Assembly (NCBI GenBank): GCA_019163335.1
Contig: JAFLKM010000054.1
Span: 1 to 32,789 of the forward strand
Direction of reading: 5' to 3'
Length of the DNA stretch: 32,789 nucleotides
Origin: Desulfobulbaceae bacterium
Lineage (GTDB): Bacteria > Desulfobacterota > Desulfobulbia > Desulfobulbales > Desulfocapsaceae
The first letter of the stretch is position 1; each line of letters opens with the position of its first letter. Below, piece by piece: positions 8,800 through 24,988 of the stretch. A program made the translations under genes and the position numbers. The notes below the pieces were generated by a model that was given only the letters and a program-made list of their open reading frames with translations, was not told the DNA's origin and made no database searches.

Positions 8800-8823
8800 A
8801 GAAAACCAGAAGGACAATTTTTT

Positions 8824-8896
8824 AGTGCCTTACAGATTATCTTCTTGTAAAAAAACAAGAAGATAATCTGTAAGGCACTCATCCCGTTTATCGGGG
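8824..8896 (-). repeat. Long-hairpin repeat, copy 1 (inverted)
   Basis: A perfect 24-bp inverted repeat, arms 8824-8847 and 8856-8879, with loop TAAAAAAA. The companion small hairpin CCCGTTTATCGGGG lies at 8883-8896. The whole unit is reverse-oriented relative to copies 2-5. It sits between the predicted promoter and the PEPCK-family start. No T run follows, so it is not a plain rho-independent terminator. Confidence 0.9.
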
Positions 8897-10632: not shown

Positions 10633-10704
10633 CCCCGATAAACGGGCTAAGTGCCTTACAGATTATTTTCCGGTAAAAAACAAGAAAATAACCTGTAAGG
10701 CGCT
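10633..10704 (+). repeat. Long-hairpin repeat, copy 2
   Basis: Begins 9 bases after the PEPCK-family stop. The small hairpin CCCCGATAAACGGG is at 10633-10646. The large stem has arms 10650-10673 and 10681-10704 with an A-rich loop. The arms have diverged from perfect pairing at a few positions, several of them G-T. The remaining sequence to 10791 holds only a small CCTCA/TGAGG hairpin. Confidence 0.88.
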
Positions 10705-10803
10705 CATGGGCAAATGGCTGAAGCAAAGGCATGCAATCGACCGTTCTGGCCATTTCCTCATAGTCTGAGGATATTTTATGGTCGTTTTCTCAGGAGAATA
10801 ACC

Positions 10804-11463: not shown

Positions 11464-11913
11464 ATGCATATCCTGGTGGACGCCGATTCCTGTCCCGGAA
11501 TCATCAAGAACATCCTCTACAAGGCTGTGGAAAGAACCGGGACCAGAATGACCCTGGTGGCTGATCGTCCCCTGACAACTCCACCCTCCGCGCACATCCA
11601 GAAAATCCAGGTCAAGCCGGGTCTCAATGCGGCAGATATCCGGATCATCACTCTGGCGCAAATGGGCGATCTGGTCATCACCGATGACATCCCCCTGGCC
11701 TCAGCCGTCATTGCAAAGGGAAGCCTGGCACTGAACCAGCGGGGGGAGATGCTGCGGGAAGAAAATATCGCCGAACGGCTCTCAGCCCGGGACTTTATGA
11801 CCGAACTGCGGGAAAGCGGCATTGACACCGGCGGCCCGGCGCCGCTGACACAGAGGGATCGGCAATCGTTTGCCAACCAACTGGACCGCTTGCTGGTTCA
11901 GCAAAAAATCTAG
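11464..11913 (+). CDS. yaiI: YaiI/YqxD (UPF0178) family protein
   Basis: A 149-residue soluble protein matching the UPF0178 family along its whole length: ILVDADSCP at the N-terminus, DLVITDDIPLA in the middle, LNQRGE, then ARDFMTELRESG and TGGPAPLTQRDRQSF at the C-terminus. The conserved acidic residues suggest a PIN-like nuclease fold, but no function is established. ATG 11464 aligns with the family start; a TTG at 11446 would add six residues. It is followed immediately by copy 3 of the long-hairpin repeat. Confidence 0.88.
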   Translation: MHILVDADSCPGIIKNILYKAVERTGTRMTLVADRPLTTPPSAHIQKIQVKPGLNAADIRIITLAQMGDLVITDDIPLASAVIAKGSLALNQRGEMLREENIAERLSARDFMTELRESGIDTGGPAPLTQRDRQSFANQLDRLLVQQKI

Positions 11914-11988
11914 CCCCAACGAACGGGATACGTGCCTTTTGCAGATTATTTTCTTGCAAAAAAACAAGAAAATAATCTGTAAGGCACT
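11914..11988 (+). repeat. Long-hairpin repeat, copy 3
   Basis: Starts at the base after the yaiI stop codon. The short leader CCCCAACGAACGGG is at 11914-11927. The large stem has arms 11931-11956 and 11965-11988 with loop CAAAAAAA. The right arm is the 24-nt consensus. The left arm has two extra bases, giving a small bulge. Confidence 0.88.
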
Positions 11989-12023
11989 AACCTTTACTTT
12001 CATACATACCAACAAGAAATATC

Positions 12024-14178: not shown

Positions 14179-14182
14179 CCAA

Positions 14183-14381
14183 CCCCGATAAAGGGGATAA
14201 GTGCCTTTCGCAGATTATTTTCTTGCAAAAAAACAAGAAAATAATCTGAATTCCATTTCTAAATCAAGATGTACACGAGGAGAAAAGTGAGCCGCGACGA
14301 AGCAGTACAGCGAGTACGGTGAGGAGCGGCGTAGCGCATTCGACGAAGTGAACGCTTGATTGAGAAATGGAATAAGGCACT
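14183..14381 (+). repeat. Long-hairpin repeat, copy 4, split by an insertion
   Basis: Starts four bases after the cytochrome stop. The small perfect hairpin CCCCGATAAAGGGG is at 14183-14196. The left arm is 14200-14225 and the right arm begins at 14234. The right arm is interrupted after 14248 and resumes at 14373-14381. Joining 14234-14248 to 14373-14381 gives exactly the 24-nt arm of copy 3. Confidence 0.88.
14249..14373. mobile_element. 124-bp MITE-like element nested in hairpin repeat
   Basis: It has 19-bp terminal inverted repeats at 14250-14268 and 14355-14373 that match at 18 of 19 positions. The interior is about 86 bases and codes for nothing. It interrupts copy 4 of the long-hairpin repeat, so it arrived later. 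No target duplication longer than one or two bases is visible. The parent transposase is not in the window and the family is not identified. Confidence 0.75.
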
Positions 14382-22338: not shown

Positions 22339-23565
22339 CTACTTTTCCTGAAGTTGAGAACGTGAATACACGTCCTGATCGTACTGCCCCGGCCCTGACT
22401 TCTTAAAATAATAAAAACCGGCCAGGGCTATCATTGCCGCATTGTCCGTACAGAAAGAGGGCCGTGGAATACAAAGGTTTATCCCCTCCTGCCGGCAATA
22501 CTCGCCCATGACTTCACGAAGACGGGGATTGGCCGACACCCCGCCACCAAGCACAATCGTCCCGACACTATATTTTCTTGCCGCAAGCAGGGTCTTTGCC
22601 ACGAGAACGTCGACGATCGCCTCCTGGAATGAGGCACAGACATCCGCAAGCTGCAGGGGAACACTCTTCTGCCGCGCTCCATTGCAATGATTCAGCACAG
22701 CAGTCTTCAAACCAGAAAAGCTGAAATCCAGAGATCCCTCCTCATCGGTCGGTGACGGCTCAGTATTGTTTGATCCAGGGAGGGATATAGAGCGGCTGCC
22801 AGCCAAGGATGGCTTGGCGCCGTTCGCTCCAGGTGTAGATAAAGAACGGCCGCCGGCCAGGGATAGCCTAGTGCCGTTCGCTCCAGGTGTTGATAAAGAG
22901 CGGCCGCCGGCCAGGGATGGCCCAGTGCCGTTCGCTCCAGGGATGGATAAAGAACGGCCAAGCCAGGCCCGGGGAAATGCAATGGCGCACCGGTCACCGG
23001 TACCGGCCTCAGATGACACATGCGGGCCGCCCGGATAGGGCATTCCCAGGATTTTTGCGACCTTGTCAAAGGCCTCACCGGCGGCATCATCGCGGGTTCT
23101 GCCCAGCAGGGTAAAAGAGGTATGGCTGTGCGCCAGATAGATGGAGCTGGTGCCGCCGGAAACAATGAGGGCGATATAGGGAAATTCCGGTTTTTCCTCT
23201 TCCAGAAACGCCGCCAGCAGATGTCCGGCCATATGATCCACCCCGACAAAGGGAATCCCGGCAACATAGGACAGGGCCTTGGCATAGGAAAAGCCGACGA
23301 GCAGGGAGCCAATCAGTCCCGGTCCCTGAGTGACCGCAATAAGATGAATATCAGCTAAAGTGACATCCGCCCGTTCCAGAGCCTCCTGGACAATGGGGAC
23401 GATGGATTCCAGATGTTTGCGTGAGGCAAGTTCCGGCACCACTCCGCCAAAACGGGTATGAATCTGATCCTGGCTGCTGAGGACACTTGCCAGCAGGAGA
23501 CTGTCGTCCTGCATCACTGCGGCAGCCGTATCGTCACACGAAGTTTCTATTCCCAGGATAAGCAT
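22339..23565 (-). CDS. tsaD: tRNA N6-adenosine threonylcarbamoyltransferase with in-frame repeat insertion
   Basis: A 408-residue ASKHA-fold enzyme that makes t6A at tRNA position 37. Present are ILGIETSCDDT at the start, the metal-binding H111-x3-H115, IVSGGTS, GEAFDKVAK, FSFSGLKTAV, VLGGGVSAN and CTDNAAMIA. Between FPRAWL and GSLDFSFSG it carries about 72 extra residues made of four 18-residue repeats. Removing them gives about 336 residues, the normal TsaD length. ATG 23565 matches the family N-terminus; 23631 would add 22 residues. All catalytic segments are intact, so the protein is probably active with a surface loop expansion. Confidence 0.92.
   Translation of the reverse strand: MLILGIETSCDDTAAAVMQDDSLLLASVLSSQDQIHTRFGGVVPELASRKHLESIVPIVQEALERADVTLADIHLIAVTQGPGLIGSLLVGFSYAKALSYVAGIPFVGVDHMAGHLLAAFLEEEKPEFPYIALIVSGGTSSIYLAHSHTSFTLLGRTRDDAAGEAFDKVAKILGMPYPGGPHVSSEAGTGDRCAIAFPRAWLGRSLSIPGANGTGPSLAGGRSLSTPGANGTRLSLAGGRSLSTPGANGAKPSLAGSRSISLPGSNNTEPSPTDEEGSLDFSFSGLKTAVLNHCNGARQKSVPLQLADVCASFQEAIVDVLVAKTLLAARKYSVGTIVLGGGVSANPRLREVMGEYCRQEGINLCIPRPSFCTDNAAMIALAGFYYFKKSGPGQYDQDVYSRSQLQEK
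22744..22959 (-). repeat. Four tandem 54-bp in-frame units inside tsaD
   Basis: Units at 22906-22959, 22852-22905, 22798-22851 and a degenerate 22744-22797. Each encodes an 18-residue unit such as GRSLSTPGANGTRLSLAG. On the plus strand each unit contains GCCGTTC and GAACGGC or GAGCGGC as hairpin arms. Stops are absent from two minus and two plus frames across the block. Confidence 0.9.
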
Positions 23566-23836
23566 AGTTAAGTCAGGTGGAGCAAGACGTTCATGGAGTT
23601 CTGCGTAACTCGTAAGGACATGCAGGGACAAAAGGAGCTGACGAACAAAAAAGCGTCAATTTACACTGCCCTTGAACCCCTTCTCCTCTAACCGAAAAAA
23701 GGAGCAGAAAGGGACTTGTCATCGGCACCAGATTTTCTTGGCAGAAAAAGACAATTCAGGGTATTACTTTCTCCGTTTATATGGTCTCTTTTCTCAAAAA
23801 AGTCAACATCCACCGCTATCAGCTATCCCATTCATC
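23566..23836. other. Divergent region between tsaD and moaA
   Basis: About 270 bases. A TTG-initiated extension of moaA to 23672 is open but unlike the family, so I treat it as leader. I see no clear sigma70 promoter and no molybdenum-cofactor riboswitch architecture. Confidence 0.4.
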
Positions 23837-24988
23837 ATGGTTTTATCATCACTCCAGGACATACACCAGCAAGAGCGGAATGACCTCATAAGAGATCGAT
23901 TTTCCCGAACCATCTCCTATCTCCGCCTCTCCATTACCGATCGCTGCAACCTGCGCTGTATCTATTGCATGCCGCCTTCTTCCATCATTCAGCACGCAGA
24001 CCTGCTCAGTTATGAAGAGATGCTGCGGGTTGTGGGCATCGCTGTGGGCATGGGCATGAACAAACTGCGCCTGACTGGCGGCGAACCTCTGGTGCGCAGG
24101 GGAATCATGGATTTCATCCGTAGCCTGACCGCAATCCAGGGCCTGGAAGAAATCCGTCTGACCACGAACGGCGTCCTATTAAACGACAAGGCAGCCGAAC
24201 TGCGGCGCATAGGGATCAGGAATCTGAACATCTCCCTTGACTCCATGCAACCCGAGAAATTTCTCAAAATCACTGGCGGTGATTTTTTTGATCAAGTCTG
24301 GCAATCCATTCAGACTGCCTGCGATCTGGGATTCAATGTGAAAATCAATGTAGTGGCGATGAAGGGAATCAATGACGACGAGTTTATCGACTTTGCCAGA
24401 TTGGCACTGCAAAAACCCGTCCAGGTCCGATTCATCGAATTCATGCCCATCGGCAACAAGGAAAACTGGGACAAAAGTCGGTTCATCAGTGCCGGCGAAC
24501 TCCAAACACTCATCTCCACCCTGGGAACTTTGGAACCCGCAGGCCAGGGACGGCCCAGTGTCGCGGGCACCAAGGACGGTGCAGGAGCGACCGCAGGCCA
24601 GGGACGGACAAGGGTCGCGAGTACCAAGGACGGTGCAGGAGCGACATCTTCTGCTCCTCGACTGGAAGGACCAGCGCGGGTTTATCGGCTGACCACGCCG
24701 GACGGCCAGACGGGAAAGGTCGGTTTCATCAGTCCCATCAGTCACCACTTCTGCGATCAGTGTAACCGGCTTCGCCTCACCTCAGAGGGACGACTACGCG
24801 CCTGTTTGCTCCACAACCATGAAACCGATCTGAAAACTCTGCTCCGCCAAGGCGGCACCGACAGTGAGATTCAAGCGGCAATCCGAGAGACCATTCTCGA
24901 CAAACCAAAAGGACATACCCTGCAAAATGACCTGACAGAATCAGGTATGGCAAACTGTGTTGGCCAGATGTCGCAGATTGGGGGATGA
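23837..24988 (+). CDS. moaA: GTP 3',8-cyclase with in-frame repeat insertion
   Basis: A 383-residue radical SAM enzyme for the first step of molybdenum (or tungsten) cofactor synthesis. The SAM cluster is C37-x3-C41-x2-C44, with LTGGEPL following. The second cluster is C306-x2-C309 and C323. The C-terminus ends in Gly-Gly as in the family. Between residues 235 and 270 are 36 extra residues, two 18-residue repeats, in a variable loop before the second cluster. Without them the length is 347. ATG 23837 fits the family; no clear ribosome site is seen. The enzyme is probably active. Confidence 0.92.
   Translation: MVLSSLQDIHQQERNDLIRDRFSRTISYLRLSITDRCNLRCIYCMPPSSIIQHADLLSYEEMLRVVGIAVGMGMNKLRLTGGEPLVRRGIMDFIRSLTAIQGLEEIRLTTNGVLLNDKAAELRRIGIRNLNISLDSMQPEKFLKITGGDFFDQVWQSIQTACDLGFNVKINVVAMKGINDDEFIDFARLALQKPVQVRFIEFMPIGNKENWDKSRFISAGELQTLISTLGTLEPAGQGRPSVAGTKDGAGATAGQGRTRVASTKDGAGATSSAPRLEGPARVYRLTTPDGQTGKVGFISPISHHFCDQCNRLRLTSEGRLRACLLHNHETDLKTLLRQGGTDSEIQAAIRETILDKPKGHTLQNDLTESGMANCVGQMSQIGG
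24539..24646 (+). repeat. Two tandem 54-bp in-frame units inside moaA
   Basis: Units 24539-24592 and 24593-24646, encoding AGQGRPSVAGTKDGAGAT and AGQGRTRVASTKDGAGAT. They share their period and the GGCCAGGGA-x-GGCCCAGTG core with the tsaD units. A GTCGC/GCGAC stem encloses a GCACC/GGTGC stem in the first unit. Confidence 0.9.

Follow-up and report, generated by a model that had tools for sequence, protein, structure and literature searches.

The window, the whole stretch of 32,789 nucleotides that was analysed, carries two arrays of a repeat with a 54-base-pair (bp) unit, one inside moaA and one inside tsaD. Its features are as follows.

23837 to 24988, + strand: moaA (GTP 3',8-cyclase), identified by a match to NCBIfam moaA.
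24538 to 24591, + strand: moaA repeat unit 1 (CGCAGG...GCGAC), placed by alignment and the family boundary.
24592 to 24645, + strand: moaA repeat unit 2, placed by alignment, with a decayed first hairpin (GGCC...GGAC).
22754 to 22959, + strand: tsaD array of four units (+72 residues), found by family match inside the tsaD open reading frame (ORF) 22339-23631 (- strand).

The insert in moaA consists of two head-to-tail copies of 54 nucleotides that are 91% alike (24537-24644 by self-alignment; 24537-24645 by Tandem Repeats Finder, score 183). Ends taken from alignment alone are uncertain by 1-2 bases; the boundary common to the family, ^CGCAGG...GCGAC, sets the insert at 24538-24645, which confirms the span 24539-24646 of the original prediction with a shift of one base. 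The first half of unit 1 contains the hairpin GGCC-N6-GGCC and the second half the hairpin GTCGC...GCACC-N6-GGTGC...GCGAC. The reading frame of moaA is unbroken across the array, and the net gain is exactly 36 residues, as expected from an in-frame insertion of 108 bp: two conserved motifs are separated by 71 residues in the window MoaA and by 35 in 29 insert-free MoaA proteins.

The window MoaA matches the NCBIfam family moaA (TIGR02666) in two stretches with 363.6 bits, compared to a cut-off of 284.05. The radical SAM and C-terminal clusters and the GG tail had been predicted to be kept, and C37/C41/C44, C306/C309/C323, and G382-G383 are indeed invariant across 31 aligned MoaA sequences. In the solved MoaA structure 1tv7, which we take to be that from S. 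aureus, residues 228 and 249 correspond to positions on either side of the insert; this agrees with the proposed position in a variable loop before the second iron-sulfur cluster. In the predicted structure, the insert sits between two strands, ahead of the cysteines of the second cluster. The AlphaFold pLDDT is about 25-29 over most of the insert, with 209 of the 383 residues of the protein at 90 or above. Residues 237-277, nearly the whole insert, have pLDDT values below 50, and elsewhere only the two termini are so low; however, low values are expected here because the insert has few homologues. The model indicates that the insert probably gives the enzyme an extra, floppy or disordered loop. 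The other MoaA matches listed in the window's genome (99.4% complete) either have less than 40% identity or are due to the repeat, and the window gene looks intact from its sequence.

Thirty-eight MoaA loci were found in named genomes, of relatives in what we take to be the order Desulfobulbales, several labelled Desulfocapsa or Desulfocapsaceae. Thirty-five were aligned (L120, L121, and L126 were left out), and 33 reach the insert site; two stop short of it, L124 and L122, the latter on a contig that starts within the repeat. Comparison of the sister genomes shows that the number of units varies: the window has 36 extra residues, L119 has 18, L090 has a decayed 30, L092 has three, and the remaining 30 of the 33 relatives have none. 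The length of the insert-free site could be measured in 29 of these 30, and all 29 are equal. An ancestral segment of MoaA, which was looked for as the finding that would contradict an insertion, is rejected because the insert is missing from 30 of the 33 relatives and because of its placement in the tree. In the tree of 34 MoaA sequences, calculated with the insert columns removed, the window and L090 group together and L119 is placed elsewhere; the well supported forks require at least two changes of insert state. The three residues in L092, GCAGGAGCAACC, resemble the right end of the unit and look like a deletion scar. Since L092 also neighbours L119 (support 84/77), a gain followed by a partial deletion would fit the sequences of this clade. 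Two gains at one site and one old gain with several losses are indistinguishable as histories of the MoaA insert.

The species of the window and of L090 are close and both carry the insert, and the separate lineage of L119 carries one at the same site; this would fit an insert that has a function in MoaA, as a loop for binding or regulation maintained by selection. However, the 54-bp unit also occurs in unrelated enzymes and in three frames, L092 retains only the apparent scar, and MoaA of most genomes of the genus does without the loop. This region of MoaA is covered in 14 of the 17 genomes of the genus: the match continues across the insert in G000, G003, and G014, whereas in the other 11 the insert is absent and the match consists of two pieces that abut or nearly do so. 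In G005 only the segment following the insert is matched, and G007 and G012 have only weak radical-SAM matches. A functional loop is therefore considered very improbable.

The 54-bp unit represents a genus-wide dispersed family, found in a group of sulfur-cycling bacteria that are uncultured, and MoaA is one host of many. Close copies were found by BLAST at about a dozen further sites in the window's genome, and thus the moaA array is not a chance repeat. A local tandem duplication within moaA, with no mobile element involved, would account for the tandem arrangement, but it leaves unexplained the close copies that many other genes of the window's genome contain, and insert-free MoaA has nothing that corresponds to the unit. 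Local duplication as the only cause is contradicted by the dispersed copies and was rejected; we give it almost no credence. A covariance model built from 20 units of G000, the window's genome, has 22 unit matches at E < 1e-8 in that genome, 20 of which are the training units, and it has matches in 14 further genomes of the genus outside its training. The repeat is present in 15 of the 17 genomes of the genus, and the two misses are 55% and 63% complete. A first sample of other groups gave none in 20 genomes from other genera of the family and four in 21 from other families. With the stricter filters applied to scans over 40 genomes, the repeat was detected in 33 of 257 genomes of the class (15 from the genus, 4 from other genera of the family, and 14 from other families) and in 15 of 395 genomes of an even sample of the phylum, in scattered families. 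A search of five repeat loci at the Rfam gathering thresholds gave no match to a known RNA family. The repeat lies at or beside the end of several contigs (L122, the moaA piece of G005, G000:C4:111, and G005:C282:4); draft assemblies therefore probably undercount copies and units, and unit counts in draft genomes may be collapsed.

The repeat has consistent ends. In 58 arrays located in genes, the left end is CGCAGG and the right end is GCGAC, mostly followed by CG. To the left of CGCAGG, the likeness to a continuing array is weak, at 16-41% per base, except for a G at position -5. This G is found in 71% of the 58 genic arrays compared to 15% of the non-genic ones, and it may mark a target preference. 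To the right of GCGAC, C is present in 83% and G in 64%, after which the values drop to 22-60%; some arrays end in a partial unit. Pairing in each of three helices is kept in 123 distinct units above all 500 shuffles, and double changes include CG to GC in 14 units and TA to CG in 12; both this statistic and the counts of reading frames given below use related sequences, which inflates them, and the controls correct for this only partly. Compared with shuffles, folding as DNA gives z-scores of -0.23 and 0.24 for the moaA units and -0.48 for both together, and -3.18 and -0.90 for tsaD units. Because single moaA units fold no better than shuffled sequences, the claim of a palindrome rests on the alignment.

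The tsaD array belongs to the same family as that in moaA, in line with the proposal that the two insertions have a 54-bp period in common. Unlike the moaA array, it is read from the strand opposite to that of the repeat. Empty sites were found in orthologues of three genes, MoaA, TsaD, and Tmk. Independent insert lengths come from comparison with these orthologues, since the multiples of 54 in the coordinates of model matches are not independent. The single TsaD site is empty in 9 of 21 rows; it has 18 extra residues in two identical rows, 36 in three, and 72 in the window. Other lengths (+17, +28, +29, and +32) are distributed across five rows, and L090 has an assembly gap. Tmk (loci L240-L253) has 0 to 75 extra residues in 14 genomes: none in six, 21 in G003 and G005, 75 in G000 (insert at G000:C2:78398-78624), and 16 to 29 in the other five. 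The difference between the insert of G000 and those of G003 and G005 is exactly three units. The Tmk insert is presumably located in the LID loop next to the active site. Steps of whole 18-residue units, such as +18 and +36 in MoaA, are thus common but not universal, and other inserts have decayed to odd lengths.

To describe where copies are located, 107 arrays were examined out of 123 found (16 scoring below 20 were dropped), taken best-scoring first and not at random; 17 are from G000, 65 from G014, where they represent the stronger part of 131 matches, and 25 from other genomes, two of which lie outside the genus. An array was called genic if it lay within an open, coding-like ORF judged by the score of the whole ORF; a score of the 150-bp flanks was too strict and missed Tmk. 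By this rule, 14 of 17 arrays are genic in G000, 25 of 65 in G014, and 19 of 25 in the other genomes. Random placements of 58 bp are genic in 1481 of 1896 cases in G000 and 1248 of 1748 in G014. Genes are therefore not preferred, and G014, with all forms of the repeat pooled, is below random.

The repeat has a second form. Most non-genic copies in G014 are the core of a longer element with a consensus of 160 bp and conserved outer arms (27 copies aligned), and tandem cores are present inside the armed form too. Of 71 arrays consisting of the core only, 57 are genic, compared with one of 36 copies that carry outer arms; the arm motifs were defined on G014, and arms may have been missed elsewhere (one armed copy in G000 and none among the 25 arrays of other genomes). 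The only armed copy called genic, G014 C52:27013, is probably a false call; it was excluded from the count of host families and frames and retained in the counts of genic arrays, ends, array frames, and the two forms. The 27 aligned armed copies have the common ends TTAGGAGCCG... ...CGGCTTA, which form an imperfect inverted repeat. A MITE is recognised by terminal inverted repeats together with a target-site duplication; here, the TTA at both ends may represent such a duplication or belong to the element. The window also contains a second hairpin repeat, unrelated to the first, at 8822-8896, 10633-10707, 11912-11991, and 14181-14260, in both orientations; one copy has a perfect 25-bp stem, and the repeat has a CCCCGATAAACGGG-like end. 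At G014 C17 near 11930 it is contained within an armed copy of the 54-bp family, and at G014 C63 near 67116 it is immediately adjacent to one, which suggests that it is mobile too.

Thirty-eight host families have genic copies in open frames, among them TsaD, Tmk, MurE, MutL, RecB, RecD, and IlvD. According to NCBIfam matches, the hosts in G000 include TsaD, MoaA, MurE, GlgA, Tmk, RecB, and a TatD-family protein. One further host, on contig C9, has no NCBIfam match at E 1e-20 and is assumed by us to be MqnD, and one array lies where the genes for an RhlB-like helicase and an ABC-F protein meet. Hosts in G014 include MurE, PurF, RecB, RecD, Mfd, HypE, HypF, PepN, IlvD, HolB, Nfo, MutL, and a Kdo-transferase-like protein; those in other genomes include MutL (three genomes), RecD, MurG, CbiE/CbiT, ABC-F, and HsdR. 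The NCBIfam match spans or flanks the insert in many hosts, including MutL (four genomes), RecD, PepN, IlvD, HypE, HypF, Nfo, and MurG. A position near a terminus, beyond the stretch that best matches the family, is seen in GlgA, PurF, Mfd, HsdR, CbiE/CbiT, and the TatD-family protein; some of these inserts may lie upstream of the real start or in a tail. Two copies lie at gene junctions (G000:C3:50907-50971 and G000:C22:32782-32846), where they appear to supply the terminal part of one gene and the start region of its neighbour. Many of the hosts are DNA repair proteins: MutL (G001, G004, G013, and G014), RecB (G000 and G014), RecD (G001 and G014), and Mfd and Nfo (G014).

The choice of reading frame is not even. 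In the 53 of 58 genic arrays that score at least 35, three frames are used 26, 16, and 8 times, two others are used twice and once, and the sixth is unused. Of 86 genic units, 48, 73, and 83 are open in the used frames and 75, 83, and 72 in the rarely used ones. With each combination of host family and frame counted once, 38 of 40 fall in three of the six frames (chi-square p = 3e-7 against openness), a grouping that was chosen after seeing the data. The used frames encode hydrophilic peptides rich in Gly, Ser, Pro, and Asp, and the others are richer in Arg, Trp, or Leu. This bias argues that the inserts are translated and undergo filtering as proteins; alternatively, the machinery of insertion may itself favour a strand and codon position. 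Mitochondrial bypassing elements are segments that are skipped by the ribosome. If the insert were likewise absent from the working protein, through ribosome skipping or removal from the mRNA, the conserved pairing of the hairpins would fit. However, the frame and the peptide should then not matter, yet the three hydrophilic frames are used almost exclusively, and whole units preserve the frame unaided. Skipping is thus a highly improbable explanation.

What is observed is a dispersed family with consistent ends, open frames, empty sites, varying unit number, conserved pairing, and a frame bias. Very probably, the 36 additional residues in MoaA derive from a short palindromic element of the RPE/REP kind that is mobile but non-autonomous; it would be present there in two tandem copies, which the enzyme would tolerate as a disordered loop. 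The element would be 54 bp long and able to form two small hairpins. It would enter genes as whole units of 18 codons and, because most of its frames are open, an insertion could leave the frame of the host intact. Copies would persist wherever they encode a hydrophilic loop compatible with the host enzyme. Subsequently, arrays would gain or lose units, often whole ones, and old inserts would decay. Movement would be by a transposase or another DNA mechanism, and the MoaA loop would be translated, disordered, and close to neutral for MoaA.

A more specific form of the mobile-element reading can be offered tentatively, as an unlikely possibility: the core form is cut at GCGAC^CGCAGG and moves in complete 54-bp monomers, so that every insertion or amplification step adds exactly 18 codons, its sequence is shaped to encode harmless peptides in three frames, and the armed non-genic form serves as a reservoir. 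If so, the element would be a parasite adapted to life inside essential genes, not merely filtered by selection. Several of the host enzymes are essential in other bacteria. As to the machinery, the paired short hairpins and their grouping resemble BIMEs, and PF01797 genes were detected in 36 of the 38 genomes searched, with seven matches in the window's genome, so that a REP/BIME element mobilised in trans by a RAYT (Y1 transposase) of the genus can be envisaged. This is doubtful, however, since the consensus contains neither GTAG nor CGTC, PF01797 genes are present also in genomes where the repeat was not found, and 24 stretches around PF01797 genes (15 distinct ones in the genus, with one place represented twice) have no repeat unit, the best E-value being 8.8.

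Sister species with empty, one-unit, and multi-unit versions of the same enzyme provide a natural series in which the tolerance of enzymes to new loops can be tested. The series also bears on the origin of disordered segments and on how mobile elements spare the genes that they enter. Users of the marker genes TsaD, Tmk, MutL, and RecB should be aware of lineage-specific inserts.

In-frame palindromic elements have been described from Rickettsia, Wolbachia, Neisseria, enterobacteria, and several REP-rich species, according to sections of PMC2229807 and PMC3733652. The RPEs, palindromic repeats found in frame in Rickettsia genes, and the protein-coding palindromes of Wolbachia are 105-146 bp long, and a guanylate kinase bearing an RPE is active with a changed substrate affinity, as sections of PMC2229807 report. 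The 54-bp family resembles them as a short palindromic repeat located between genes and in frame in conserved genes: it is dispersed in and outside genes, is in frame where orthologues are empty, and is palindromic with compensatory changes. It differs, as far as the descriptions in these sections allow comparison (PMC2229807), in its host group, in a 54-bp two-hairpin unit as opposed to 105-146 bp, and in head-to-tail arrays that change by unit steps. The hosts in the Desulfobulbales would, judging by the source of the records, be free-living.

REPs of the GTAG and CGTC super-families occur inside genes, many of which function in DNA synthesis and repair, including recBCD, according to parts of PMC3733652. 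The 54-bp family is similar to these intragenic REPs in its small hairpins with complementary stem changes, in its single, paired, or grouped copies, and in its repair genes (recBCD there; recB, recD, mutL, mfd, and nfo here), but it forms same-orientation arrays with a 54-nucleotide period and its consensus lacks a GTAG or CGTC end (compared with parts of PMC3733652), for which reason it was not filed under these REPs. The consensus contains neither motif on either strand; somewhere in the unit, on either strand and with positions uncounted, GTAG occurs in 24 and CGTC in 88 of 123 units. GACG in the printed units falls within the first hairpin, and the fixed ends are CGCAGG and GCGAC. The flanking RAYT gene typical of GTAG REPs was not seen for the 54-bp family in the 24 stretches around PF01797 genes. 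The string 'Desulfo' is absent from the main text of PMC3733652, and the literature searched, which covers only a minority of subscription papers, shows no earlier report of the repeat in the Desulfobulbales group.

The Correia/NEMIS elements of Neisseria, as characterized in sections of PMC2229807, have a shorter open-frame form in genes and a longer form with stops that is found almost only between genes. The 54-bp family likewise has two forms, a short genic and a long non-genic one; by description in the same sections (PMC2229807), it differs in that the 54-bp short form constitutes the core of the long one (consensus of 160 bp in G014) and occurs in tandem arrays. The 54-bp family appears to be new, although the kind of element that it represents is known and has rarely been described.
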